NCBI GenBank assembly: GCA_947454055.1
Contig: CANGIS010000001.1
Span: forward strand, 1 to 64,000
From: Hyphomicrobiales bacterium
GTDB taxonomy: Bacteria > Pseudomonadota > Alphaproteobacteria > Rhizobiales > Beijerinckiaceae
Direction: 5' to 3'
Length of the DNA: 64,000 nt
Each line of letters opens with the position of its first letter. The stretch's first letter is position 1. The position numbers and the translations under genes are program-made. The notes beneath the pieces were generated by a model that was not told the origin of the DNA, searched no databases, and saw only the letters and a program-made list of their open reading frames with translations. Below, in pieces: positions 156 through 39,312 of the stretch.

Positions 156-917
156 ATGCACCAAGATCATGCCAGCATGGTCGCGATCAAGCCTCGGAAT
201 GTCCCAGTCCCCGTGAAAAAGCCCGTCCTCATCGTTCTACATCAGGAGCAATCGACCCCCGGGCGGGTCGGTTACGCGTTACGTCAACGCGGCTATCGGC
301 TTGATATCAGGCGTCCTCCGCTCGGTGATCCTCTTCCCGATACGGCAGCCGATCATTCCGGCATGGTTGTCTTCGGCGGCCCTATGAGTGCCAATGATCC
401 TGACGCCTGGATCGCCGACGAAATGCGCTGCATCGAAACCTTCACCAAAGCGGACGCGCCCTATCTCGGTCTGTGTCTCGGGGCGCAATTGCTGTGTCGG
501 GCGCTGGGATCTCGAGTGTATAAACACGCCGATGAAGAAACGGAAATCGGTTATTATCCGCTGTCGCCAACCGAAGCCGGTAGCCGTCTATCCGACGATA
601 TGGGGGTGGAATGGCCAAGCCATGTCTATCATTGGCATCGCGAAGGCTTCGATCTTCCCGCTGGTGCCGAATTACTCGCCCAAGGCTCGACCTTCCCCAA
701 TCAGGCCTTCAAGCTGGGCAGTCACGGCTACGGCCTCCAATTTCATCCCGAGGTCACCTATGCGATGATCTGCCGGTGGACCGTCCGTGCCTTTGAAAAA
801 ATGCAGCACAAGGGCGCGCAGGAAGCCGGTCAGCACCGTGCGGGATGGTATGAATACGACCATTCCGTCAAGCTATGGCTTGATGGCTTCCTCGATCAAT
901 GGCTGCCTTCGAGCTAA
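156..917 (+). CDS. Class I glutamine amidotransferase (GMP-synthase-like)
   Basis: A 253-residue protein with a single class I glutamine amidotransferase domain. The nucleophile motif is LGLCLGAQ (Cys near residue 107), and the histidine-glutamate part of the triad is in QFHPEV further on. An early FGGPMSA segment is also typical. The domain removes ammonia from glutamine, but no synthetase domain is fused or adjacent, so the acceptor is unknown. Stand-alone members include gamma-glutamyl-polyamine or gamma-glutamyl-amine hydrolases, and many are uncharacterised. The start could be the ATG at 156 or the in-frame ATG at 177; neither has a good ribosome-binding site. The stop overlaps the convergent hpt stop by 4 bases. 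Confidence 0.82.
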   Translation: MHQDHASMVAIKPRNVPVPVKKPVLIVLHQEQSTPGRVGYALRQRGYRLDIRRPPLGDPLPDTAADHSGMVVFGGPMSANDPDAWIADEMRCIETFTKADAPYLGLCLGAQLLCRALGSRVYKHADEETEIGYYPLSPTEAGSRLSDDMGVEWPSHVYHWHREGFDLPAGAELLAQGSTFPNQAFKLGSHGYGLQFHPEVTYAMICRWTVRAFEKMQHKGAQEAGQHRAGWYEYDHSVKLWLDGFLDQWLPSS

Positions 918-1462
918 GCCTGTTCGTCGTCCATTTCGACAACGCCGATAAAGGGCAGTTGCCGATAGGAATGGGCGACATCCATGCCATAGCCGACCAC
1001 GAACAGGTCCGGACAGGTAAAGCCAACAAAATCGGCCTTGACCGACACGGCGCGCTTGCCGGGCTTTTCAAGCAAACAGCATGTCAGAACGCGGGCGCCA
1101 CGCGCGGCCAGCAGATCCTTGGCAAAAGCGATGGTCCGGCCTGATTCGAGAATATCATCAATCAGAATCACATCGCGATCACGCACATCGCTCTCGACAT
1201 CTTTCAGGATCACGACCTGACCCGATGAAACCGTCGCGTCGCGATAGCTCGATAAATGCATAAATTCCACCTGCGGCATCAGCCCGGCATGGTGGAGCGC
1301 GCGCATCAGATCAGCGGCAAACATAAAGCTGCCCTTCAGGATCGCGACCAGCAAAAGCTGCTTCGGCTCCCGCTTGGCAATTTCAAGCGCGATCTCGTGA
1401 TTGCGGCGAGCAATCTGATCCTCGTCGATCAGAACGCGAACTCGTCTTTCTTGGGACATCAT
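914..1462 (-). CDS. hpt: Hypoxanthine phosphoribosyltransferase
   Basis: 182 residues, usual length for bacterial Hpt. It converts hypoxanthine (and guanine) plus PRPP to IMP/GMP in purine salvage. The PRPP-binding motif VILIDDILESGRT is complete, with both acidic residues, and the flexible-loop region LVAILKGSFMFAADL precedes it. The C-terminal FVVGYGMD segment fits the purine-contacting end. Convergent with the amidotransferase, and downstream of a zinc-ribbon protein on the same strand, separated by 46 bases. No regulatory site is evident. Confidence 0.93.
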   Translation of the reverse strand: MMSQERRVRVLIDEDQIARRNHEIALEIAKREPKQLLLVAILKGSFMFAADLMRALHHAGLMPQVEFMHLSSYRDATVSSGQVVILKDVESDVRDRDVILIDDILESGRTIAFAKDLLAARGARVLTCCLLEKPGKRAVSVKADFVGFTCPDLFVVGYGMDVAHSYRQLPFIGVVEMDDEQA

Positions 1463-1508
1463 CTAACCCGTCAGGCCGGAGAAGAAGGAGCTTTGCGTCG
1501 CCTAAACC

Positions 1509-2135
1509 TTAGGCGCCCGAAAAGCGGATCCGTATGTCTTTACCGTCCCGCGGCGGAGAGGCAAGCCTTGCCTTGAACGGGACGGGCTCTCCCTTGACGA
1601 TTGTTGCGGCCGGAGCGGGTATCATCCACTGAAAAATCACGCTTTCCGTTCCATCCCGCATCGTGAATTGAAGCGGAGGCAAAGATTTTTCGCGATTCGA
1701 ATCAGACAGAATGTCCCCTTCGATCATAAGGGCGGTCTCGCCCCCCTCGCTGCCAAGCGTTGTCCTGATATTGGCAAAGCTCAAGCCCGCCACGTCGCTG
1801 GAGGGTATCACAGCGTCAATCCACCCCATGGCGCGCGCCATGACCCAATCGAATTTTTCATATCCTGCAAGAAGGGTGAGCCCCGCCAAAGCGGCGGCCC
1901 CCATCGCCACATGGCGCCTGAGCGGTCGTTTTGGCATCGACAGCGGCGCATCGTCCAGCGAGGCAGGCACCGGCATTTCAGCATCATGTTCGGAAGGTTG
2001 CTTTCCTTCGGACGTCGCCCCGTCGGCCCGCCACGAGGTTTGGCAAACGCTACAGCGCACCAACCGGCCCGGCTGGCCGAGCTCGGCCGCACGAACCAGA
2101 TAAGAGCGCGAGCAATTTGGACAAACGATCAACAT
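1509..2135 (-). CDS. Zinc-ribbon (MJ0042-type) single-pass membrane protein, DUF3426-like
   Basis: 208 residues. The N-terminus carries a treble-clef zinc ribbon with two CxxC knuckles (CPNC and CSVC about 20 residues apart). An acidic linker follows, then one hydrophobic helix (near residues 75-93), then a periplasmic domain ending in KDIRIRFSGA. This is the layout of the MJ0042-type zinc-finger / DUF3426 proteins common next to ftsEX in Alphaproteobacteria. The function is unknown; ligand sensing across the membrane is only a guess. Divergent from ftsE with 62 bases between the start codons. A perfect 7-bp hairpin (1499-1515) contains the stop codon. Confidence 0.8.
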   Translation of the reverse strand: MLIVCPNCSRSYLVRAAELGQPGRLVRCSVCQTSWRADGATSEGKQPSEHDAEMPVPASLDDAPLSMPKRPLRRHVAMGAAALAGLTLLAGYEKFDWVMARAMGWIDAVIPSSDVAGLSFANIRTTLGSEGGETALMIEGDILSDSNREKSLPPLQFTMRDGTESVIFQWMIPAPAATIVKGEPVPFKARLASPPRDGKDIRIRFSGA

Positions 2136-2197
2136 GGCGAATCAGATATGCTCTTGCAAAAGGGGTCTCTTCGGGCTCCACATCCGATCATGCACGC

Positions 2198-2929
2198 ATG
2201 ACCTTAAAGAAGGTTGAAAGTTCCTTGCCGACGTTTGCGCATCGCCCTTTGGGTGAACTCGTCCGTTTTGAGAATGTCGGCTTGCGTTATGGCGTGGGGG
2301 CGGAAACGCTCACCGATGTCAGCTTTGCCATTGAGCCACAATCCTTCCAGTTCCTGACCGGCGCATCGGGTACCGGCAAAACGACGCTTCTGCGCCTGAT
2401 CATGCAGGCATTGAAGCCGACGCGCGGCATGATCGCCCTGTTTGGTCAGGATACATCGCAGCTGGATAAAGAGGGGCTGACCTCGTTAAGACGACGGATG
2501 GGCATTGTTTTTCAGGATTTCCGGCTCCTCGACCACCTGACAACCTACGAAAACGTCGCCCTTCCACTGAAAGTACAGGGTCGCGAAGAAGCGACCTATC
2601 GGGCCGAAGTATCCGAGCTTCTCAATTGGGTCGGCCTTGGCGATTTAATGCATGTCACGCCCGCGGTTTTGTCGGGCGGTGAAAAGCAACGCGCCTCTAT
2701 TGCCCGCGCCTTGGTCGCCCAGCCTGAACTGCTGCTGGCGGATGAGCCGACCGGCAATGTGGACCCCTCGCTAGCGCGGCGGTTGTTGCGGCTCTTTGTC
2801 GAGATGAACCGTTCGGGAACCGCCATATTAATCGCAACCCATGATCTATCCCTGATGGACCAGATCGACGGCGCAAGACGTCTGGTGCTGGCCGATCGCC
2901 GATTGCATATCGAGAGCGGCCATGACTGA
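2198..2929 (+). CDS. ftsE: Cell division ATP-binding protein FtsE
   Basis: 243 residues from the ATG at 2198. A longer open frame exists upstream but runs antisense through the zinc-ribbon gene. Walker A is GASGTGKTTLL, the Q-loop region is GIVFQDFRLL, the ABC signature is LSGGEKQRASIARAL, and Walker B is LLLADEPTGNVD. The sequence is typical of FtsE, the ATPase that works with FtsX at the septum to control peptidoglycan hydrolases. Its end overlaps the ftsX start by 8 bases, so the two are translationally coupled. The N-terminal extension before the ABC core is about 22 residues, slightly long. Confidence 0.95.
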   Translation: MTLKKVESSLPTFAHRPLGELVRFENVGLRYGVGAETLTDVSFAIEPQSFQFLTGASGTGKTTLLRLIMQALKPTRGMIALFGQDTSQLDKEGLTSLRRRMGIVFQDFRLLDHLTTYENVALPLKVQGREEATYRAEVSELLNWVGLGDLMHVTPAVLSGGEKQRASIARALVAQPELLLADEPTGNVDPSLARRLLRLFVEMNRSGTAILIATHDLSLMDQIDGARRLVLADRRLHIESGHD

Positions 2930-3872
2930 CCGATCCGGCATTCCCCGCACCCCACGTTTCGCCTTGAGCCGGCTCGTCCCGCTGTTTCAGCGCGATCCGA
3001 TGGTTGCCGCCGATCCCGTTACGGATAAGGCCCTGATCGCGGTCATCGCCATCATGACCTTTCTGGCCGCCATGACAGCAGGGGCAGCCCAGTTTACGGC
3101 CAGCACCACCTCGCGCTGGCAGGTGCTGATGGCCTCGGAAGTTACCGTTCAGCTCAAACCGCAAGGCAGCCGGCCGATCGAGACCGATATTGTTCGGGCC
3201 ACCGATATTTTGCGCGGCACGACGGGCGTTTCCTCGGTGAAGGTGTTCTCGCGGGAGGAATCTTCCAAACTTCTCGAGCCTTGGCTGGGCTCGGCCTCGG
3301 CCATCGAAAGCTTACCCATTCCGCGGCTGATTGCGGTTCGGATTGATGCCGACCAGCCGCCCGATATGGCGGCCCTCGGCAAGGCCGTAGCCGACAGTGT
3401 GCCGGGTGCCAGTCTGGACGACCACCGAAATTGGACGAGACGCTTGAGCCGCATTTCGGACCTGTTCCTGCTGGTTTCGCTTTCCGCCCTGGTTCTGGTT
3501 TTAACCGCTACAGGCCTTGCCATTGTTTTTGCCACGCGCGGCGCCATGGCCGGCAACCGCGAAATCATCGAAGTCCTGCATTTTATCGGGGCGGACGACC
3601 GCTATATCGCCACCCAGTTTCAGCGTCATTTCGCCGTTCTGGGGATCAGGGGCGGGCTAATCGGCGGCGGCGCGGCGTTGATCCTCCTGCTAGCCCTTCG
3701 GATCGCGGGCTCCTCATCGGTTGGATTGTTGGATGCCAACGGGCTTTCCGGTTTGGCGCTCCCCGGTTCCGAAATGATGGCGGCAACCGTGCTCGTCATC
3801 GTGCTTGTCGGCCTTGTCGCCGGCATGGCCTCGCGGATCACGGTTTACCGAACCATTGGTCGCCTCGCCTGA
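2922..3872 (+). CDS. ftsX: Cell division permease-like protein FtsX
   Basis: 316 residues with the FtsX plan: a cytoplasmic N-terminus, one membrane helix (around residues 37-55), a periplasmic loop of about 120 residues, then three C-terminal helices. The stretch TATGLAIVFATRGAM followed by EIIEVLHFIGADD is the signature of the FtsX core. FtsX anchors FtsE and passes ATP hydrolysis to periplasmic activators such as EnvC; an EnvC-like gene lies about 4 kb downstream (8224-9618). The start overlaps ftsE. Confidence 0.94.
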   Translation: MTDRSGIPRTPRFALSRLVPLFQRDPMVAADPVTDKALIAVIAIMTFLAAMTAGAAQFTASTTSRWQVLMASEVTVQLKPQGSRPIETDIVRATDILRGTTGVSSVKVFSREESSKLLEPWLGSASAIESLPIPRLIAVRIDADQPPDMAALGKAVADSVPGASLDDHRNWTRRLSRISDLFLLVSLSALVLVLTATGLAIVFATRGAMAGNREIIEVLHFIGADDRYIATQFQRHFAVLGIRGGLIGGGAALILLLALRIAGSSSVGLLDANGLSGLALPGSEMMAATVLVIVLVGLVAGMASRITVYRTIGRLA

Positions 3873-29753: not shown

Positions 29754-30572
29754 TCAGTCTTCAGCGACAACCAGTGCTGCCGCGCGACGTTCGGCACGGC
29801 GGCGCAGGATTTCATAAATGATCGCACACACCACCGTCACGATGATCAGCAGCAATGCCAAGGCATTGATGGTTGGCGTGATGCCGGACCGGATCTTGGA
29901 GCCGACGTAAACGGTGAGCGTGTCCGAATTGCCGCGCGTGAACAGCGTGACGTTGAAATTTTCAACCGACTGGAAAAACGCAATCACGGCGCCGGCGATA
30001 ATGGCCGGATACAGATGCGGCACCAGAATGCGACGAATGACCTGACCATGGGTTGCACCCAGATCGAGCGCTGCTTCTTCCAGACCCGGATCAAAACTCT
30101 GAAGACGGGCGAGCACGAGCAGCATCACATAAGCCGCCACAAACGAGACCTGCCCTAAAACCGAGAGATAGAGACCGGCGGAGACGCCAAAACTGTTCCA
30201 GAACAACAGTGTCGAGATGCCGATAACGGCACCCGGCGTGAGGATCGGCGCGACCATGAAGCCGTAAAGGATCGAACGGACCTGCGGCTTGACGCTGTTG
30301 AGCAGAATGGCCGACGCCGTTCCGATCGGAACCGAAATGGCAACAACCGCCAATGCGACCCAGGTCGTATTCCGAACCGAGCCCCACATCCGCTGGTCGT
30401 TCCACAAATCGATGAACCAGCGGTCCGTCAACCCGACCCAAGGATAGACCGATGGAAACCGGGTATTGTTCAAACCCGCACCACCCATGATCGCCAAGGG
30501 CAACAGCATATAGGCAACGAACAGGGCCAAATAGACCCGAACAACAATTTTGGAGAAGGTTTGAGAATTCAT
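29754..30572 (-). CDS. Polyamine-type ABC transporter permease (PotI/PotC-like)
   Basis: 272 residues from the ATG at 30572. Six helices with the binding-protein-dependent transport EAA loop: EEAALDLGATHGQVIRRILVPHL. It is the second permease of a spermidine/putrescine-type importer and the last gene of the operon. The order SBP-ATPase-permease-permease and this sequence match PotFGHI-like systems. The exact substrate cannot be read from the permease. Confidence 0.9.
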   Translation of the reverse strand: MNSQTFSKIVVRVYLALFVAYMLLPLAIMGGAGLNNTRFPSVYPWVGLTDRWFIDLWNDQRMWGSVRNTTWVALAVVAISVPIGTASAILLNSVKPQVRSILYGFMVAPILTPGAVIGISTLLFWNSFGVSAGLYLSVLGQVSFVAAYVMLLVLARLQSFDPGLEEAALDLGATHGQVIRRILVPHLYPAIIAGAVIAFFQSVENFNVTLFTRGNSDTLTVYVGSKIRSGITPTINALALLLIIVTVVCAIIYEILRRRAERRAAALVVAED

Positions 30573-30582
30573 GACCGCCTCT

Positions 30583-31467
30583 TCACTTCGCAATATCGAC
30601 GAGGCGCACATTGAGAAGGCGCATGACAAGACTGACAAACACAATGCAGAGCGCCAGCAGCAGGAAGGCGTAAGCAGAGCCTACATTCCAATCGAGCCCT
30701 TCAAACATCCATTGCTGAATGATCTCGGTGAACCAGCGCGAACTGGTTGAGGCCAACGTCGACGGTACGATCACAGAACCCGCACACAGCATGAAAACCA
30801 TCACGCAACCCGAGGCAATACCAGGTTTGGAATGCGGGATCACAACGCGCCAATGCGTCCGCCACATCGAAGCGCCAAGATCTTCCGAAGCCTCGATCTG
30901 GTTGGTGTCCAGCGCTGAAATTGCATTGTAGATCGGAAACAGCATGAACAAGATGTAGGCATAGACGAGGCCGATGATGACGGATTGATAGCCCGAAATC
31001 CAGCGGATCGGCTTATCGATCAGACCGATACCCATCAAAAGCGCATTGAGCGGGCCTTGATTGGATAAAATGATGAACCAGGCAAATGACCGGAGAATTT
31101 CGCTGACCCAAAGCGGAATCAGCAAGATCAGAAAAAACGTCGCCGTGTCGGTCGGCTTGAGCACCTTGGCCAGCACATAGGCCAGAGGATAGGTAATCAT
31201 CAGGCAAATGCCCGTAACGAGCGAGCTATACAGAATCGTCGTGAAAAACACGTTGATATGGATCGGGCTGGTGAAGAACGTGAGGTAATTCTTCAGCGTA
31301 TAGACGTCATTAGGACCGCCCAGCTGATCAACCGGCAGGTAGACCCGGAAGGAGAACTTGAAGAGCACAAGATTGGGAATGACAACCAAAGCAAACAGCC
31401 AGAAGGCTGTCATGGCTGCCATGACAACCGACAGGCCGATGCCATATCGCCGGATCAGTTCCTGCAT
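30583..31467 (-). CDS. Polyamine-type ABC transporter permease (PotH/PotB-like)
   Basis: 294 residues. Six to seven helices and the EAA loop IEASEDLGASMWRTHWRVVIPHS, the contact with the ATPase. It pairs with the second permease 10 bases downstream. It resembles PotH/PotB of spermidine/putrescine importers. It starts 13 bases after the ATPase stop, so the genes are co-transcribed. Confidence 0.9.
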   Translation of the reverse strand: MQELIRRYGIGLSVVMAAMTAFWLFALVVIPNLVLFKFSFRVYLPVDQLGGPNDVYTLKNYLTFFTSPIHINVFFTTILYSSLVTGICLMITYPLAYVLAKVLKPTDTATFFLILLIPLWVSEILRSFAWFIILSNQGPLNALLMGIGLIDKPIRWISGYQSVIIGLVYAYILFMLFPIYNAISALDTNQIEASEDLGASMWRTHWRVVIPHSKPGIASGCVMVFMLCAGSVIVPSTLASTSSRWFTEIIQQWMFEGLDWNVGSAYAFLLLALCIVFVSLVMRLLNVRLVDIAK

Positions 31468-31480
31468 GTCCTTATTCCCC

Positions 31481-32578
31481 TCAGTGCCCGCTGCGGCCGT
31501 TGACCGCCTCGGACAAAATCATGCAGCTCGATGGATTGAACGCCATGTGACAGGTCGTGTGGAGCGCCGGAGGCGGCGTGGCCGGGTCATTCTGGACCTG
31601 CACCATATGGGTATCCCCGCTGCCGTCACGAACGAACACGTTCACGAAATTGCCCTCGAAGGCGATTTCGGTGACTTCGACCGGAATTGAATTTTCCTTC
31701 GCGTCGGTGCTTGACCCGAGCGAGCAGAATTCCGGGCGCACAAACAATTTCGAAACATCGCCGACCGCGACATTCGGGCCAAGCTTGGCGCTGAAGGTAC
31801 CCTTCGCGGTTTCGAAGCTGGCAATGCCGCCGGTCACGGACTTGACCTTGCCGCCGATCACATTGTTCTCGCCGACAAACGACGCCACAAATTCGTTGAC
31901 AGGATTGTTGTAGATTTCCTGCGGGGTCGCGACCTGCTGCAACACGCCTTGCGACATGACGCCGACGCGATCCGACATTGCCAGAGCCTCGCCCTGATCG
32001 TGGGTTATGTAAATGAAGGTAACGCCGGTCCGCTTCTGGATCGCGCGCAATTCGGCGCGCATATGCTGGCGCAATTTCAGATCGAGGGCCGATAGTGGCT
32101 CGTCGAGCAACATGACCTTCGGCTCAACGGCCAAAGCGCGCGCAATCGCAACGCGCTGCTTCTGGCCGCCCGATAATTGGCTGATCTTCTTGTCAGCGGA
32201 ATCGTGCAGGTCGACGAGCTGCAAAAGCTCTTCCGCTTTCGCACGGCGCACCTCTTTGGCAACGCCGCGAACTTCAAGCCCGAAGGTGATGTTTTCCCAG
32301 ACGGGCATCAAGGGAAACAAGGCCAAATTCTGGAAGATAAGGGCCGTGGGGCGCGCATTCGGGCGAATGCCCTTCATGTCCTTGCCACCAATTTTCACGG
32401 CACCACCGGTTGGATCCATAAAGCCTGATATCAGACGAAGGATAGTTGTCTTGCCGCAACCCGATGGGCCGAGAAATGAAAAGAATTCGCCGGACTTGAT
32501 GGTCACTTCGACATTGTTGACCGCTCGGAAACTTCCGAAATCCATGCAAATCTGAGACAGATGAACGTCTTCACTCAT
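31481..32578 (-). CDS. Polyamine-type ABC transporter ATPase (PotG/PotA-like)
   Basis: 365 residues from the ATG at 32578. Walker A is GPSGCGKTTILRL, the signature LSGGQKQRVAIARAL, Walker B VMLLDEPLSALD. After the ATPase core (about 1-240) comes a C-terminal TOBE domain, as in PotA/PotG. It energises the two permeases encoded immediately downstream. Between it and the binding-protein gene stands an internal terminator, which likely lowers its expression relative to the binding protein. Confidence 0.92.
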   Translation of the reverse strand: MSEDVHLSQICMDFGSFRAVNNVEVTIKSGEFFSFLGPSGCGKTTILRLISGFMDPTGGAVKIGGKDMKGIRPNARPTALIFQNLALFPLMPVWENITFGLEVRGVAKEVRRAKAEELLQLVDLHDSADKKISQLSGGQKQRVAIARALAVEPKVMLLDEPLSALDLKLRQHMRAELRAIQKRTGVTFIYITHDQGEALAMSDRVGVMSQGVLQQVATPQEIYNNPVNEFVASFVGENNVIGGKVKSVTGGIASFETAKGTFSAKLGPNVAVGDVSKLFVRPEFCSLGSSTDAKENSIPVEVTEIAFEGNFVNVFVRDGSGDTHMVQVQNDPATPPPALHTTCHMAFNPSSCMILSEAVNGRSGH

Positions 32579-32617
32579 TTTAAAACCGGGTTCTTTCTGG
32601 GACAAAAACAAGGCGGA

Positions 32618-32649
32618 TAAAAAAGCGACGGGCTTTCAGGCCCGTCGCT
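32618..32649 (-). terminator. Internal terminator between binding protein and ATPase genes
   Basis: Stem AGCGACGGGC (32624-32633) with its complement at 32640-32649, and six A at 32618-32623, read as a T-run on the minus strand. It fits partial termination after the binding-protein gene, the usual way to make more binding protein than transporter. Confidence 0.8.
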
Positions 32650-32664
32650 CTGTATTCGGTCTAA

Positions 32665-33813
32665 TTATGCTGCGATGAACTTGTCAGCATATTCAGCGCG
32701 CAGCTTCAAGAACGAGCTGGTCTGAACTGGCCACCACCAAAGCTTCGACAAAGCGTCGCCTGGGAAGGAGTCGACATAGAACTTGGCGACCGAAGCGTCG
32801 AGCTTGGCCGATGCGCCCTTGCCGACCGGATTGGCCGAGAACGCCGTTGCCCAAAGAGCCGAGCCTTCAGCCGACGACACCCAGTTTTGGAAGGCATGCG
32901 CCTGCTCGACATTCTTCGCGTTCTTCATGAGCATGTTGCCCTGGTTCCAAGCAAACGCGCCTTCCTTAGGAGCGATGTAGGAGAAAGGACCTTCCTTGCC
33001 CATGTTGAAGCCGGTCGAATCCCACGTCAGACCAAGCACGCAACCATTGGTGCGGAATGCGGCCTGCGCCTCGTTTTCGCCCTTCCAGAACTGAGCGACG
33101 TTCTTCTTGTGCTTGATGGCTTCGGCCAGGATGACATCCCAGATCTTCTTCATCTTTGCGTCGTCTTTGTAGCCTTCCATGAATGGATGCGGCAGCTTGC
33201 CCTGGGCATCCAACACGCGGCCGAGAGCGGCGAGCGAGGAGTGAGCGCGAACCGTAACCTTGCCCTCGAACTTCGGATCCCAAAGGTCGGCGAGGCTTGC
33301 CGTGCCATAAGCCATCGGTGCTTCCTTCGTGTTGAAGGTCAGCGCTTCCGTGCCCCAAACGCCTGGGAGGAAGAAGGTCTTGCCGCCAATGGTGGCCATA
33401 TCGCCAGCCTGGCCGGAAACGAGACCTGGCTCCCACTGGTCGATCTTGATCTTGGTCATATCCCAAGGCTGAACCAGACCGTTTTCGTTGTACGAAAGAA
33501 CGCGGTCAACCGTTGGCTCGATCACGTCGACAGCGCCGGTCTGGATCGCGAGCTTCGCCTGGGCGAAAATCGTATCATTGTCTGGCTGTTCGATGAAATT
33601 CATCTTGATGCCGGTCGCTTTCGTGAACGAAGCAAAGGCGTCCTTGAAGTCATAACCAGCCCAGCCCATATAGTTGAGCTCGCCCGACGAAGCCAGCGCG
33701 CCATTCGAAACGAGCGCAGGTGCGGCGATGGCGCCAAGGCCAAGGGCCGCGGTGCTTTTCAGGAATGAACGGCGGCTAACCGAATTCGTATTCTTGATCA
33801 CAGTCTTCTCCAT
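32665..33813 (-). CDS. Polyamine-type extracellular solute-binding protein (PotF/PotD-like), Tat-exported
   Basis: 382 residues. The signal has a twin-arginine motif SRRSFLKSTAALGLG followed by an Ala-rich h-region and ALA cleavage site (near residue 41). The mature part begins SGELNYMGWAGYD, the start of spermidine/putrescine-binding proteins, with FAQAKLAIQTGAVDV and WNQGNMLMKNAKNVEQAH later. It captures the ligand in the periplasm for the downstream transporter. A sigma-70-like promoter lies about 90 bases upstream. Confidence 0.9.
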   Translation of the reverse strand: MEKTVIKNTNSVSRRSFLKSTAALGLGAIAAPALVSNGALASSGELNYMGWAGYDFKDAFASFTKATGIKMNFIEQPDNDTIFAQAKLAIQTGAVDVIEPTVDRVLSYNENGLVQPWDMTKIKIDQWEPGLVSGQAGDMATIGGKTFFLPGVWGTEALTFNTKEAPMAYGTASLADLWDPKFEGKVTVRAHSSLAALGRVLDAQGKLPHPFMEGYKDDAKMKKIWDVILAEAIKHKKNVAQFWKGENEAQAAFRTNGCVLGLTWDSTGFNMGKEGPFSYIAPKEGAFAWNQGNMLMKNAKNVEQAHAFQNWVSSAEGSALWATAFSANPVGKGASAKLDASVAKFYVDSFPGDALSKLWWWPVQTSSFLKLRAEYADKFIAA

Positions 33814-34185: not shown

Positions 34186-35157
34186 TTATCCGCGCCGCTT
34201 CACCAGTGCGGGCGCCAGCACGCAGAGGATTTCGAACAGCACATTCGCTGCGTTCATGGAGGTGATCGTGCCATTGTCAAAAGGCGGCGATACTTCAACA
34301 ACATCGCCACCGATAAAATCGATGCCCGCGAGCGAACGGATCAGCCGCTGGGCTTCCACCATCGTCAGCCCGCCTGATTCGGGCGTACCCGTGCCAGGCG
34401 CATAAGCCGGATCGAGGCTGTCGACGTCAAACGACAAATAGGTCTTGCCGCCGCCAACGATGCGGTGCGCCTCCTCGGCCGCCCATTTCCAGCCTTTATC
34501 GGTGAATTCTTCCATATAGACGACACGCATGCCGCTATCATGGCTGAATTTCCACATATCCTTATGGTTGATTGACCCGCGAATACCGATCTGGATCACG
34601 CGCTTGGGATCAAGCAAGCCCTCTTCCACCGCACGCGAGAACGGCGCGCCGTGGTGAAACCGCGAGCCGAGATAATCGTCACCCGTGTCACAATGGGCAT
34701 CGATATGCACCATGCCGACAGGGCCGTCTTTGGCGATGGCCCGCAGGATCGGGAGTGAGATCGAGTGATCGCCGCCCACCGCCAGCGTGGTCGTTCCCGC
34801 CCGCTTCACTTTGGCAAAAAAGCCCTCGATCTCCCGATGAGCCGCCATCAGCTCATAGGGCGCTTCCAAAAACGCATCCCCGCAATCGGCGACCCTCACC
34901 ATGTCAAACGGGGAAATGCCGGTACCCTGATTGACGCGCCGCACCAGAGTTGTCTGTTCGCGAACCGCGCGCGGGCCATGTCGCGTGCCCGTCCGGTTGG
35001 TCACGCCGCCATCATAGGGAACACCGATCACGCCAATATCGACGCCCTCCAGCGTATCGACGAGCGGGGTGCGAAAAAACGTCGCCACACCCGAGTAGCG
35101 CGGACGAAGCTGCGGCTCCGCCATTTCGGGATAATGCTTCAAATCCTTGATCGTCAT
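34186..35157 (-). CDS. speB: Ureohydrolase (agmatinase / guanidino-acid hydrolase family)
   Basis: 323 residues, arginase superfamily. All di-manganese motifs are present: VGGDHSIS (His), HIDAHCD (Asp, His, Asp) and SFDVDSLDPAYAPGTGTPE (Asp pair). It releases urea from a guanidino compound. Agmatinase is the default call, but N-terminal RYSGVATFFRTP and RTGTRHGPRAVREQ also fit guanidinobutyrase/guanidinopropionase proteins. The start overlaps the acetate kinase stop by 4 bases. The binding-protein importer lies downstream and an omega-aminotransferase is divergent from the operon, so a role in catabolism of imported amines is likely. Confidence 0.85.
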   Translation of the reverse strand: MTIKDLKHYPEMAEPQLRPRYSGVATFFRTPLVDTLEGVDIGVIGVPYDGGVTNRTGTRHGPRAVREQTTLVRRVNQGTGISPFDMVRVADCGDAFLEAPYELMAAHREIEGFFAKVKRAGTTTLAVGGDHSISLPILRAIAKDGPVGMVHIDAHCDTGDDYLGSRFHHGAPFSRAVEEGLLDPKRVIQIGIRGSINHKDMWKFSHDSGMRVVYMEEFTDKGWKWAAEEAHRIVGGGKTYLSFDVDSLDPAYAPGTGTPESGGLTMVEAQRLIRSLAGIDFIGGDVVEVSPPFDNGTITSMNAANVLFEILCVLAPALVKRRG

Positions 35158-36359
35158 TGGGGCCTCGCCGTCGGGTTGCTGGTCAGAACCGCCACCGTGG
35201 CACGGGCGATCATGAGCTCTTCATTGGTCGGTATCACAAAGGCTTTAGGGCCGCTTGCGCCACTGATTTGGCCAGTTTCGCGCGTGTTGGCACTGGCGTC
35301 GAGCGAAAAGCCGGCGAAAGCTAGACCATGGACGACATCGGCCCGAAGGGACGCGTCATGCTCGCCAATGCCGGCGGTGAAAACGAGGGCATCGATTCCG
35401 CCCAAGGCCGCAATCATCGATCCCGCCTCGCGAACGATCCGGTAGGTGAACATCGCAACCGCCTCGCGCGCCTCGGGCCTTGTCGCCATTTCGTCCCGCA
35501 ACCGACGCATATCGCTCGAAATACCCGAAACACCCAGCAAACCGGATTGATGATACAGCATCGCCTCCACATCGGCGGCACTCATGCCTTCATCGCGCAT
35601 CAGATAAAAAATCACGGCCGGATCAATCGCACCGGTGCGGGTCCCCATCATCAGGCCGTCAATGGCCGAAAAGCCCATCGTCGTGGCAATGCTCTTGCCG
35701 TTCTGCATCGCGCACAGGCTGGCGCCATTGCCCAAATGGGCAACCACTACTCGGCCTTTGGCTAATTCGGGCGCTGTGCGGGCAAGTTCGGTGGCAATAA
35801 ATTGATAAGAAAGCCCATGAAATCCATAGCGCCGCACCCCTTTGGCCGTAATGGCCCGCGGCAAGGCAAAATTTCGGGCCACATCGGGAATACTGGTATG
35901 AAACGCCGTATCAAAACAGGCAATTTGCGGCAGGTCGGGGGCTAGTGCGCCAAGGCTTTCAATCGCCGCCAGATTATGGGGTTGATGCAAGGGCGCTAAC
36001 GGCAGCAGTTTTTTAAGCGCGGCAATCGTTGTCGCATCCAACCGCACCGGCGCTTCAAAATCGGCACCGCCATGCACGACCCGATGGCCCGCTGCAAGAA
36101 GCTCGCTCAAACCGTAATGCGCCTCAATCCAACCCAGAATTCGGGCCACCGCATCCTTATGGGTCGTAATTCCAGTGGCAAGGATCGCTTCATTTTCGTC
36201 GGACTGGCCGTCGGTTCGTTTCACACTCCAGCGCGAATTCTGCCCTATGCCATCATAGGCGCCGCGGGCCAGACTGACTTCGTGACCGGAGGGCGACAGA
36301 TCCATCAGCGCAAATTTTACGCTGGACGAGCCGGCATTCAATACAAGGATCATGCCCAT
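35154..36359 (-). CDS. ackA: Acetate kinase family protein
   Basis: 401 residues. ASKHA-fold acetate kinase motifs are complete: LVLNAGSSSVKFAL, RVVHGGADF, CFDTAFHTSIP, VAHLGNGASL, LMMGTRTGAIDP and FTAGIGEHDA. It interconverts acetate plus ATP with acetyl phosphate. AAGGG, inside the end of the preceding MocR gene, is seven bases before the ATG at 36359. No phosphotransacetylase lies in the window, and the gene is sandwiched between a MocR regulator and a ureohydrolase, an odd setting. The physiological acyl substrate might be acetate or propionate, or acetyl phosphate made by a catabolic enzyme encoded elsewhere. Confidence 0.9.
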   Translation of the reverse strand: MGMILVLNAGSSSVKFALMDLSPSGHEVSLARGAYDGIGQNSRWSVKRTDGQSDENEAILATGITTHKDAVARILGWIEAHYGLSELLAAGHRVVHGGADFEAPVRLDATTIAALKKLLPLAPLHQPHNLAAIESLGALAPDLPQIACFDTAFHTSIPDVARNFALPRAITAKGVRRYGFHGLSYQFIATELARTAPELAKGRVVVAHLGNGASLCAMQNGKSIATTMGFSAIDGLMMGTRTGAIDPAVIFYLMRDEGMSAADVEAMLYHQSGLLGVSGISSDMRRLRDEMATRPEAREAVAMFTYRIVREAGSMIAALGGIDALVFTAGIGEHDASLRADVVHGLAFAGFSLDASANTRETGQISGASGPKAFVIPTNEELMIARATVAVLTSNPTARPQ

Positions 36360-36362
36360 CGT

Positions 36363-37904
36363 TTAGCCCTTCAGACGGCGATAAGCGGCGGCAAGAGCGG
36401 CAATGCCAGGCTCGATCCGCTCGGCGGGGATGGAGGAAAAGCCAAGGCGCAGATAATTCTTTGGCGGGCGCTCGCCCATGAAAAATATATCGCCGGCTTC
36501 AACAAGAACGCCCAGCGTTTTGGCTTCAGCCGCCAGCGCCTGCCCGTCAAGCGTATCCGGCCCTTTCAGCCAGCAGCTCGATACGCCCTCGCCCAACAGA
36601 AAAGAAAAATCGGGCAAATGCTTTTTGATCGCGGCATCAAGCTGTGTCGCCCGACCGCCTAATGAAGCACCGAGCCGCCTGATATGCGCTTTATAATGCC
36701 CCAATCCCAGAAACAGGGCTGCGGCACGTTGATTGTTCGAGGGCGGATGGCGCAGCATCAATCGACGCAGCGCGCGCAGTTCCCGCACCACTTCGGCCGG
36801 CGCAATAATATAGCCAAGCCGCAAACCGGGCGCCAACACCTTGGATAGACTGCCGACATAGAGCACCCGACCCGCTTGATCGAAGCTTTTCAACGAAGGT
36901 GTTTCACGCGAGTTCGGCAAGAACTCGGTCTCATAATCGTCTTCAATGATGATCAGATCATGTTTGGAGGCAACATCGAGCAATTCTTTGCGGCGTTCCA
37001 CCGGCATCGTCACGGTGGTGGGGCATTGGTGGCCCGGCGTGACATAGAGATAATTGCACTCGGCCAAGCCCTCGGAAATCATCAGGCCGTCGGCATCGAC
37101 CGGCAGTCCGCGCACATGGTCGGTCATGATCGAGAAAATATTGCGGGCATCAGGATAGCCCGGGTCTTCGACCCCCACTTTCGATCGGGCATTCATCAGA
37201 AGGCGGGCCAGCAGATAGAGCGCCTGCTGCGCCCCGATCGTCACGATGATCTCATCGGGACTGGCCCAGATTCCCCGACGCGGCAACACATGCAGACGAA
37301 GCTGATCGATCAGCTCCGGATCATCGCCATCGACGAGATCGCGCGCCCAATTGTGAATTTCCAGAACGCTCAACGCCCCGCGTGCACATTCGCGCCAGTC
37401 ATTGGTCGGAAACAAGCCGGGATCGAACTGGCCATAGAGAAAGGGATAGGGATAACTCAGCCATTCCTTGGTTTTGACAATGTTGCGCCGTGTCGACGGC
37501 AACATCGTAAACCGGCCCGACCAGTCAGGACTGTCCGGACGATCGGCCCGCGGCGAAGGACTGTCCGGTTCGCGGGCATCCGAGCCGAATACGCCTTTGA
37601 CAAAATAGCCGCTCCGCTCGCGTGACTCGAGAAAGCCCTCATCCACCAATTGCTGATAGGCCAGCACCACCGTGTTGCGGGCGACGCCCAAAATGGCCGC
37701 AAGATCCCGGCTGGACGGCATCCGCGCGGCAGCCGGCAAACGGCGTTCTTCGATCGCGGCCACAATCATTTGACGGATTTGCACCTGCAGCGATCGACCG
37801 CCATGGGAGAATTTTCGGAACAACGCATCCCAAATAACCGTTTCTTCTGACGGTGCGGACGATAGCGCTTCTACGCGCAACGGATCGGAGATACCGTGTT
37901 CCAA
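36363..37904 (-). CDS. MocR-family transcriptional regulator (GntR HTH fused to aminotransferase-like domain)
   Basis: About 513 residues from the TTG at 37904 (AGAAGG ten bases upstream). A TTG at 37961 is possible but lies in the putative operator. The N-terminal winged helix (MPSSRDLAAILGVARNTVVLAYQQLVDEGF) is followed by a class I aminotransferase-like domain with a PLP lysine in YVGSLSKVLAPGLRLGY. MocR proteins (GabR, TauR, PdxR) sense an amino compound as its PLP adduct and regulate a neighbouring gene. It is divergent from the omega-aminotransferase and ends 3 bases before ackA, so it forms the operon mocR-ackA-speB. Confidence 0.88.
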   Translation of the reverse strand: MEHGISDPLRVEALSSAPSEETVIWDALFRKFSHGGRSLQVQIRQMIVAAIEERRLPAAARMPSSRDLAAILGVARNTVVLAYQQLVDEGFLESRERSGYFVKGVFGSDAREPDSPSPRADRPDSPDWSGRFTMLPSTRRNIVKTKEWLSYPYPFLYGQFDPGLFPTNDWRECARGALSVLEIHNWARDLVDGDDPELIDQLRLHVLPRRGIWASPDEIIVTIGAQQALYLLARLLMNARSKVGVEDPGYPDARNIFSIMTDHVRGLPVDADGLMISEGLAECNYLYVTPGHQCPTTVTMPVERRKELLDVASKHDLIIIEDDYETEFLPNSRETPSLKSFDQAGRVLYVGSLSKVLAPGLRLGYIIAPAEVVRELRALRRLMLRHPPSNNQRAAALFLGLGHYKAHIRRLGASLGGRATQLDAAIKKHLPDFSFLLGEGVSSCWLKGPDTLDGQALAAEAKTLGVLVEAGDIFFMGERPPKNYLRLGFSSIPAERIEPGIAALAAAYRRLKG

Positions 37905-37932
37905 CTGAAACCGACCTTCTGGCTCTATGATT

Positions 37933-37961
37933 CTGGACCCAACTGCCCAAACTGGTCCCAA
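37933..37961. promoter_or_regulatory. Direct-repeat candidate operator for the MocR regulator
   Basis: Two copies of CTGG(A/T)CCCAA stand at 37933-37942 and 37952-37961, 19 bases apart (about two helical turns), with a partial copy CTGCCCAA between them. The site lies in the divergent region before the omega-aminotransferase. MocR regulators typically bind direct repeats in such a position. Confidence 0.5.
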
Positions 37962-37998
37962 TCTGTCAGAAGTTTAGCCCTTTGAAAAGGATCGTGTC

Positions 37999-39312
37999 AT
38001 GGCCTCAAGCGCATCACCCTCCATGGAAAATCACTGGATGCCGTTTTCGGCCAACCGGGATTTCAAACAAGACCCCAAAATGTTCACCCGCGCCGAAGGG
38101 GTCTGGTACTACGATCAGGATGGCAAAAAAATTCTCGACGGATCGTCTGGCCTGTTCACAACGCCCGCAGGCCATGGCCGCCGCGAAATTGCCGAAGCCG
38201 TTTCAAAGCAGCTTTCCGATCTCGATTTCACGCCGAGCTTTCTGCGTGGCCATGAAAAGAGCTTCGAGCTCGCGAGCAAAATCGCCGCTTTCATGCCGGA
38301 AGGTCTGGACAAGATTTTCTTCGTGAATTCCGGCTCGGAAGCGGTCGATACCGCCATGAAGATGGCACTCAATTATCACCGCATTCGGGGTCAGGGTAAT
38401 CGCCAGATGTTTGTCTCCCGGGAACGCGCTTATCATGGCGTGAACTTCGGCGGCGTAGCTCTTTCCGGCATGGTCAATAACCGTCGCGCGTTCGGCAGCG
38501 CCCTGCCAAGCGCCGTCCATATGCGCCACACCCATATTCCGGAAAACAAATTCGTCATGGGCGAAGGCGATCATGGCGCCGATCTCGCCGAGGATCTGGC
38601 ACGCATCATTGCCAATTATGGCGGCGAAAACATCGCGGCTGTTTTTGTCGAGCCGATTGCGGGTTCGACCGGCACTCTCGTGCCACCCAAGGGCTATCTG
38701 AAGCGGCTTCGCGAGCTTTGCACGCAAAACGGCATTCTGCTGGTCTTCGACGAGGTCATTACGGGCTTTGGACGGACCGGTCGGTCGTTCGCAACCCACA
38801 GCTTCAACGTAAAGCCCGACCTGATCACGATGGCAAAGGCCATCACCAATGGGGCCCAGCCTATGGCCGCCGTGGCGGCAAGCCGCGAGATTCATGATAC
38901 GATTGTGAGCGCCGCACCGGAGAATGTGACGGAATTCTTCCACGGCTACACCTGGTCGGCCCATCCTGCCGCATGCGCGGCTTCGCTGGCCACGCTCAAA
39001 ATCTACGAAGACGAGCGCTTGTTCGAGCGGGCGGCCCAAATGTCGGCCTATTTCCTCGAAGGCCTGTTTTCGCTGAAAGATGTGCCGATCGTTACCGATA
39101 TTCGGGGCTATGGCATGATGGGTGGCGTCGATGTTGCGCCGATGGGTGGCCCAGGCGCACGCGGCTATCAGTGGCAAAAGCGGATGTTTGAATCCGGTCT
39201 TCACATCAAGACGACCGGCGACGCGGCGGTTGTCGCCCCGCCTTTCGTGATGGAGACGGGCCATATCGACCAGATGATCGACGTCATGCGCACCACGTTG
39301 AAAGCGTTCTGA
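37999..39312 (+). CDS. Omega-amino acid:pyruvate aminotransferase (class III)
   Basis: 437 residues. The N-terminal NHWMPFSANRDFK is typical of beta-alanine:pyruvate aminotransferases. The PLP lysine is in ITMAKAITNGAQPMAA, the cofactor-binding YHGVNFGGVALSGM and VFDEVITGFGRTG are intact, and HGYTWSAHPAACAA is a family signature. It moves the amino group from beta-alanine, an omega-amino acid or a diamine to pyruvate. It is divergent from mocR with 94 bases between the chosen starts. The MocR protein is its likely regulator and the ureohydrolase product its likely substrate. Confidence 0.88.
   Translation: MASSASPSMENHWMPFSANRDFKQDPKMFTRAEGVWYYDQDGKKILDGSSGLFTTPAGHGRREIAEAVSKQLSDLDFTPSFLRGHEKSFELASKIAAFMPEGLDKIFFVNSGSEAVDTAMKMALNYHRIRGQGNRQMFVSRERAYHGVNFGGVALSGMVNNRRAFGSALPSAVHMRHTHIPENKFVMGEGDHGADLAEDLARIIANYGGENIAAVFVEPIAGSTGTLVPPKGYLKRLRELCTQNGILLVFDEVITGFGRTGRSFATHSFNVKPDLITMAKAITNGAQPMAAVAASREIHDTIVSAAPENVTEFFHGYTWSAHPAACAASLATLKIYEDERLFERAAQMSAYFLEGLFSLKDVPIVTDIRGYGMMGGVDVAPMGGPGARGYQWQKRMFESGLHIKTTGDAAVVAPPFVMETGHIDQMIDVMRTTLKAF

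Follow-up and report, generated by a model that had tools for sequence, protein, structure and literature searches.

The window analysed here is the first 64,000 nucleotides of contig CANGIS010000001.1 from a Hyphomicrobiales bacterium (family Beijerinckiaceae, assembly GCA_947454055.1, a genome of 2.67 Mb in 64 contigs), and at 34186-39312 it contains genes for a MocR-type regulator (mocR), an acetate kinase (ackA) and a ureohydrolase (speB) facing that of a class III aminotransferase. We read this cluster as a taurine dissimilation unit (a TauR-like MocR, a taurine:pyruvate aminotransferase, Tpa, and the acetate kinase AckA) that would have recruited a guanidino acid hydrolase. The taurine module itself is, in our judgment, very likely, and on balance we lean toward the reading as a whole, i.e., a taurine unit plus a recruited guanidino acid hydrolase that opens a route for taurocyamine (2-guanidinoethanesulfonate). 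The evidence was computed and comprises gene content, conservation, purifying selection, the presence of xsc, shared promoter boxes, key residues and the clade of the aminotransferase.

The route that we infer, together with all its substrates, the kinase's direction, the MocR ligand and the transporter cargo, would be as follows. A PotD-type ATP-binding cassette (ABC) transporter encoded behind speB would import taurocyamine, SpeB would split it into urea and taurine, and the aminotransferase would convert taurine and pyruvate into sulfoacetaldehyde and alanine. Sulfoacetaldehyde acetyltransferase (Xsc), encoded on another contig, would produce acetyl phosphate and sulfite from sulfoacetaldehyde and phosphate, and AckA would turn acetyl phosphate into acetate and ATP. 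MocR would sense taurine or its pyridoxal phosphate (PLP) adduct and activate the aminotransferase gene, the mocR-ackA-speB operon and xsc. An apparent taurine pathway together with a putative urea-cleaving enzyme means that the cells can probably also use taurocyamine. That the complete scheme operates, i.e., mineralisation of taurocyamine via taurine, sulfoacetaldehyde and acetyl phosphate with a gain of ATP, under one MocR regulon including the distant xsc and the transporter, seems to us evenly poised between right and wrong.

Cluster layout and relatives of the aminotransferase

The positions of the open reading frames (ORFs) confirmed the packed operon and the divergent aminotransferase reported in the preliminary description of the window, which had been made from the sequence alone: three bases separate mocR from ackA, ackA and speB overlap by 4 bases, and the class III aminotransferase gene is read away from mocR. 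The features are:

34186..35157, minus strand: speB, predicted taurocyamine hydrolase, a ureohydrolase resembling the guanidino acid hydrolases GpuA and GbuA (Arginase family PF00491, 288 bits; closest solved structure 3nip)
35154..36359, minus strand: ackA, acetate kinase AckA (TIGR00016, 379 bits, cut-off 293.4; Acetokinase)
36363..37961, minus strand: mocR, MocR-type regulator (GntR plus aminotransferase I/II), proposed to be TauR-like (TTG start as called, uncertain)
37999..39312, plus strand: class III aminotransferase, proposed Tpa, a paralogue of AptA (AptA model NF052567, 605.6 bits, cut-off 500)
37896..37927, plus strand: box pair GTGTTCCAA-N14-CTGGCTCTA, 23 bp from start to start, the second box recurring before xsc
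37933..37961, plus strand: direct repeats CTGGACCCAA and CTGGTCCCAA, with 1 and 2 mismatches to the TauR consensus CTGGACYTAA

The true start of mocR probably lies inside the called ORF, judging by the start called in congeners.

We compared the cluster over 12 genomes of the genus. In 11 of them, our own included, ackA adjoins speB, and the one genome where no ackA was found (G007) is 83% complete. The divergent pair of mocR and aminotransferase is present in eight (our own, G001, G002, G005, G006, G008, G009 and G010). In G002, where mocR is inverted and the genes run potDABC-ackA-speB, ackA and speB are still paired and thus travel together. Adjacency kept in 11/12 genomes and through the rearrangement of G002 indicates that the arrangement is not due to chance, and the cluster is conserved beyond this strain, a point on which the preliminary description had made its proposal depend. 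No internal stop was found in any gene copy compared across the genus (11 genomes for ackA), and the genes are under purifying selection: among the pairs printed, the ratio of nonsynonymous to synonymous substitution rates (dN/dS) was 0.01-0.02 for speB, the aminotransferase and xsc, 0.04-0.05 for mocR, 0.04-0.08 for potD and 0.07-0.11 for ackA (three pairs). Between our genome and G009 the identities were 97% for the aminotransferase, 96% for SpeB, 85% for MocR and 73% for AckA. The nearest ten SpeB records in a profile search of genome contigs were metagenome bins with 84-96% identity, the eleventh locus being only 32% identical. The host group is one of small-genome, probably freshwater bacteria, with the habitat taken from isolate names.

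The genome carries five class III aminotransferases, one of which (L107, contig C19) is a separate AptA-type enzyme scoring 707 bits on the AptA model. To place the window enzyme we searched 385 genomes of the class, with neighbourhoods of about 8 kb on each side (less at contig ends), and built a tree of 90 sequences: the first 60 listed matches after our own, 20 from further down the list, seven congeners, the window enzyme, L107 and L132. This was a quick tree (LG+G4) supported by the Shimodaira-Hasegawa-like approximate likelihood ratio test (SH-aLRT) only, with long branches flagged, including the join of L211, L222 and L234. It splits, at an SH-aLRT of 100, into a clade A of 41 sequences, which contains the C19 AptA, and a clade T of 49, which contains the window enzyme. 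Outside the genus the neighbours of the two clades differ markedly (Fisher tests, which ignore relatedness). A nearby xsc was found in 12/41 loci of clade T vs. 1/41 of clade A (p 0.0015; as L132 had been fetched because of its xsc, the unbiased count for clade T is 11/40), mocR in 20/41 vs. 2/41 (p 9e-6), a Pta-like gene in 8/41 vs. none of 41 (p 0.005) and ackA in 5/41 vs. none of 41 (p 0.055). Mapped on the tree, the xsc label required 8 changes compared with a mean of 12.4 in shuffles, and none of 500 shuffles was as low. Eight of the clade T xsc genes passed the Xsc model (L193, L205, L212, L213, L224, L232, L243 and L132), those of L191 and L200 are end fragments with Xsc as best models, and those of L199 and L215 (77% identical) were counted without a model scan; the sole xsc of clade A (L260) is an end fragment. 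The best non-genus match to the window enzyme in the class sample, L191 (67%), has mocR and its xsc fragment beside the gene. Another homologue at 67%, on plasmid pLA3 of Novosphingobium pentaromativorans, faces a MocR-type gene, beyond which lie genes for an aldehyde dehydrogenase and for a TauE/SafE exporter.

Since the window enzyme falls in clade T, with its xsc and mocR neighbourhoods, and the genome has a separate AptA-type enzyme in clade A, it is most likely a taurine:pyruvate aminotransferase. The preliminary suggestion that the amine released by the ureohydrolase is transaminated, with MocR as the regulator, is supported as a reading.

Acetate kinase, xsc and a shared promoter box

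In the preliminary description acetate kinase had no obvious place unless acetyl phosphate arose downstream, and this remark is supported by the presence of Xsc in the genome, apparently under a shared operator. The xsc gene (G000:C12:56440-58167) passes the Xsc model with 957.7 bits (cut-off 676.4). It is present in 12/12 genomes of the genus, in none of the 24 other genomes sampled from the family and in 8/24 sampled from the order (survey limit E 1e-150, the G011 copy being a fragment below the curated cut-off). The acetate kinase family phosphorylates short carboxylates, and a kinase acting on a guanidino compound was dropped for this reason. As a source of acetyl phosphate, phosphoketolase was ruled out by the lack of any PF03894 match in the genome. 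The product of Xsc is acetyl phosphate (PMC5320631, cited here and below from an excerpt), which gives the kinase a place in the cluster. The window ackA is the only PF00871 match in the genome; no Pta gene lies beside it, and a stand-alone Pta-like gene is found on contig C19. In two members of the same order ackA is physically close to xsc. In G047 (L130:9566-12621) it follows xsc directly on the same strand (43% identical; the two ORFs as called share 4 bases, and ackA may start further on). In G052 (L131) it lies 2.75 kb away in divergent orientation (47%). In addition, the excerpted account of TauR regulons in alphaproteobacteria includes tpa, xsc, pta and ackA, the last two never together (PMC5320631), and the acetate kinase gains its place from this as well. 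At L072:12326-13750, xsc is followed on the same strand by genes for two c-type cytochromes, one of them a cytochrome c', which might serve the oxidation of sulfite.

The regulatory connection comes from the promoters. In all eight genomes with a gap between mocR and the aminotransferase, this gap contains GTGTTCCAA and, 23 bp apart from it, CTGGYYCTA. A box of the form STGGYYCTA precedes xsc in all 11 promoters of the genus that were read (G011 is outside the set), as CTGGYYCTA or, in G001, G003, G004 and G007, GTGGYYCTA, preceded at a distance of 23 bp by a second, less similar box, and in G001 the sites of both promoters have the TGGTCCTAA form. The same motif was found in only 2 of 289 other upstream regions of these loci and, over the 131,870 bases of our own DNA that were scanned, three times, i.e., in the two promoters and once elsewhere (L073). 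These counts come from genomes of one genus, which are not independent. Near matches to the TauR consensus occur in the gap at 37933 and 37952. Where mocR has no aminotransferase beside it, the box was found upstream of mocR in G004 and G011. Taken together, xsc appears to share a putative operator with the mocR-aminotransferase gap.

A number of observations weigh against a taurine unit. MocR passes the PdxR model NF052282 (331.7 bits, cut-off 320), which at face value would point to pyridoxine control; as 8/8 of the MocRs examined next to xsc or a clade T enzyme also pass it (336-373 bits), this model does not separate taurine regulators from PdxR. The box was counted only after it had been seen in the two promoters, it is absent upstream of mocR in G003, and the automatic start calls missed target sites (the xsc box in G010 and the gap box in G005, G006 and G009), so that control sites may have been missed too. 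A matrix made from the aminotransferase site alone puts the xsc site at the top of its locus only in our own genome and G002; in G005 the site ranks third, and in the remaining eight genomes it falls below rank five. The TauR consensus is not enriched in the window (36 matches, 45.8 expected), and a genome-wide operator pattern, which is itself 2 mismatches off our own xsc site and thus mis-specified, gave 4 matches compared with 12 for the reversed control, a result that carries no weight either way. xsc sits on another contig than the cluster, and in G003, G004 and G011 no aminotransferase gene lies between phnY and mocR. The kinase gene evolves faster than its neighbours, though under purifying selection. 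As for the aminotransferase, it passes the AptA model, clade T is tied to taurine through its gene neighbourhoods rather than through a characterised Tpa, and ald is commoner near clade A (18/41) than near clade T (7/41, p 0.016).

The ureohydrolase, its transporter and rival substrates

SpeB passes the agmatinase model TIGR01230 (188.1 bits, cut-off 174.3). However, its closest solved structures are 3-guanidinopropionase (3nip, E 5e-107) and guanidinobutyrase (3nio, 2e-84), the best agmatinase reaching only 1e-60. It is 52% identical to GpuA over 307 aligned positions and 48% to GbuA over 302. At His131, Asp153, His155, Asp157, Asp244 and Asp246, which we take to be the metal-site ligands of the family, it has the same residues as GbuA in the alignment. 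In the substrate pocket, Arg73 of SpeB lines up with Arg72 of GbuA, the residue capping the acid end of the substrate (PMC9772407, excerpt), and Tyr162 aligns with GpuA Tyr157 (roles of both positions from excerpts of PMC9772407 and PMC10833137). Both its nearest relatives, which are guanidino acid hydrolases, and the conserved acid-capping Arg make agmatine unlikely as the substrate of SpeB. Of the two kinds of substrate offered by the preliminary description, a guanidino acid is therefore the probable one.

Among guanidino acids, taurocyamine is the sulfonate analogue of 3-guanidinopropionate, and therefore the same pocket could hold either. There is a precedent in human GDAH (formerly AGMAT), whose Arg-bearing R105 form uses taurocyamine best, three times faster than the second-best substrate, with a K_M above 50 mM (PMC9772407, excerpt). 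We favour taurocyamine as the natural substrate of SpeB by a narrow margin of confidence, from the residues and the gene context just described.

The closest solved structure is nevertheless a 3-guanidinopropionase, and this brings in the substrate that the preliminary description had found attractive. SpeB would then release urea and beta-alanine from 3-guanidinopropionate, an AptA-type aminotransferase would make malonate semialdehyde, and AckA would be incidental. The Tyr shared with GpuA and the AptA score of the window enzyme are both in line with this, and so is locus L297 of G364 (251-3300), where a ureohydrolase 56% identical to SpeB faces a class III aminotransferase closest to AptA, a pair that we consider a candidate set for 3-guanidinopropionate to beta-alanine in G364 and that favours this substrate there. 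Yet the window aminotransferase belongs to the xsc-associated clade, the genome has another enzyme of the AptA type, no role is left for the acetate kinase and the box in common with xsc would go unexplained. The route through 3-guanidinopropionate is for these reasons less well supported and in our opinion unlikely, and beta-alanine is probably wrong as the product.

The best structural match and the L297 pair count against taurocyamine, as does the context of SpeB homologues. Near its best 20 non-genus relatives in the class sample (56-79% identical, stretches of 4-17.5 kb fetched) we found no ackA, mocR, xsc or clade T aminotransferase, so that the recruitment of SpeB into a taurine unit is seen in this genus only. 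These varied contexts, and the broad specificity of human GDAH, an enzyme of the same type (PMC9772407, excerpt), would also suit a general scavenger of guanidino acids (e.g., 4-guanidinobutyrate) that ended up behind ackA with no tie to taurine. But the adjacency to ackA has been kept across the genus through rearrangement, speB has a dN/dS near 0.02, and two further ureohydrolases exist in the genome; we give a simple scavenger very little credence.

One of these (own L075:1120-10582, 39-40% identical to SpeB) is accompanied by a class III aminotransferase and a PotD-type transporter, and the locus looks like a putrescine route, judged by the starts of the proteins. In two loci of family f60 (L193 and L199) a ureohydrolase lies beside a taurine cluster. 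The one that was compared (L193) is agmatinase-like (best structure 4dz4, E 4e-110), without the matching Arg and Tyr, and was dropped as support. Directly behind speB, four congeners (G005, G006, G008 and G010) carry a gene of the penicillin amidase family (PF01804, 643 bits for L078; L078:6933-9257 on the minus strand, L077:11731-14055, L079:8126-10450 and L081:6743-8044), cut by the contig end in G010 and absent from this position in our genome, which could release an N-acylated substrate.

The unit is larger than first noted, with a polyamine-type (PotD-type) ABC transporter at 29754-33813, on the strand of speB and 372 bp after it:

32665..33813, minus strand: solute-binding protein, PotD-like (match to a twin-arginine translocation (TAT) signal just under the cut-off)
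31481..32611, minus strand: ATPase, PotA/PhnT2-like (below the cut-offs of both models)
30583..31467, minus strand: permease, PotB-like (below cut-off)
29754..30644, minus strand: permease, PotC-like (below cut-off; start codon uncertain)

Orthologous potDABC genes are found at the cluster in six genomes of the genus (our own, G002, G005, G006, G008 and G009), while G001, G003 and G007 have at the same place a non-orthologous PotD-type set, about 37-55% identical and inverted (L080:10578-14846, L085:7464-11717 and L088:314-4567); in the remaining three the contig ends or the stretch read stops short. The promoters of the alternative potD (G001 and G003) contain TGGACC- or TGGGCC-type boxes 23 bp apart by eye, and those of the orthologous potD (5 genomes aligned) have boxes 24 bp apart that are less alike. 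No TauABC or TauKLM transporter was found in the cluster, PotD-type ABC genes being there instead, which is one more point unfavourable to taurine.

The ATPases of these transporters also score, below cut-off, on 2-aminoethylphosphonate models, and this leads to an aminophosphonate route. Genes for it (deoR, phnW, phnA and phnY) lie beside the cluster in 9/12 genomes of the genus (e.g., L080:595-5309, L077:1799-6548 and L082:3929-7773), G010 showing no more than a piece of phnY where its contig ends. Next to the aminotransferase gene they converge with it, and PhnA is present in 11/12, including our own (contig C2) and G009 (C50). 2-Aminoethylphosphonate, or its N-amidino or N-acyl forms, would be converted by PhnW, PhnY and PhnA to acetate and phosphate, and AckA would activate the acetate. 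With acetate as the product of PhnA, this route competes seriously for the role of the kinase. Nevertheless, the phn genes include a transaminase and a DeoR-family regulator of their own, STGGYYCTA is absent before phn in the congener loci scanned (our own phn locus was outside the scan), and in our genome and G009 phn is on another contig with the cluster still whole. We regard this explanation as improbable.

Comparison with known systems

If the taurocyamine route is correct, the cycling of organic sulfonates and that of guanidine nitrogen meet in one operon, enzymes annotated as "agmatinase" and "AptA" gain new substrates, and the acetate kinase is no longer a puzzle. Human glycine amidinotransferase can make taurocyamine, and certain lower animals use it to accept phosphate (PMC9772407, excerpt). 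Among the papers listed by searches of open-licence literature, which leaves out most subscription journals, we found none that describes its breakdown by bacteria.

At the level of single enzymes, the window aminotransferase passes the model of the AptA omega-aminotransferases (NF052567), but belongs to a separate clade and has different neighbours. SpeB is like GpuA and GbuA of Pseudomonas aeruginosa in its acid-capping Arg, with the Tyr as in GpuA, and differs from them in being set in a taurine-type operon. With human GDAH it has the enzyme type in common, and the R105 form of GDAH prefers taurocyamine (PMC9772407, excerpt); the human enzyme, in contrast, is eukaryotic, has its K_M above 50 mM and stands outside any catabolic operon.

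The closest system as a whole is the TauR-regulated taurine dissimilation of alphaproteobacteria (tauR, tpa, xsc, and ackA or pta), whose regulon content is highly variable (PMC5320631, excerpt). The likeness lies in the divergent MocR and class III aminotransferase genes, in AckA as proposed for acetyl phosphate, in an Xsc encoded in the genome and, tentatively, in the direct-repeat boxes. Here, however, a ureohydrolase is part of the operon, the transporter is a PotD-type ABC system and not TauABC or TauKLM, and xsc is located on another contig.

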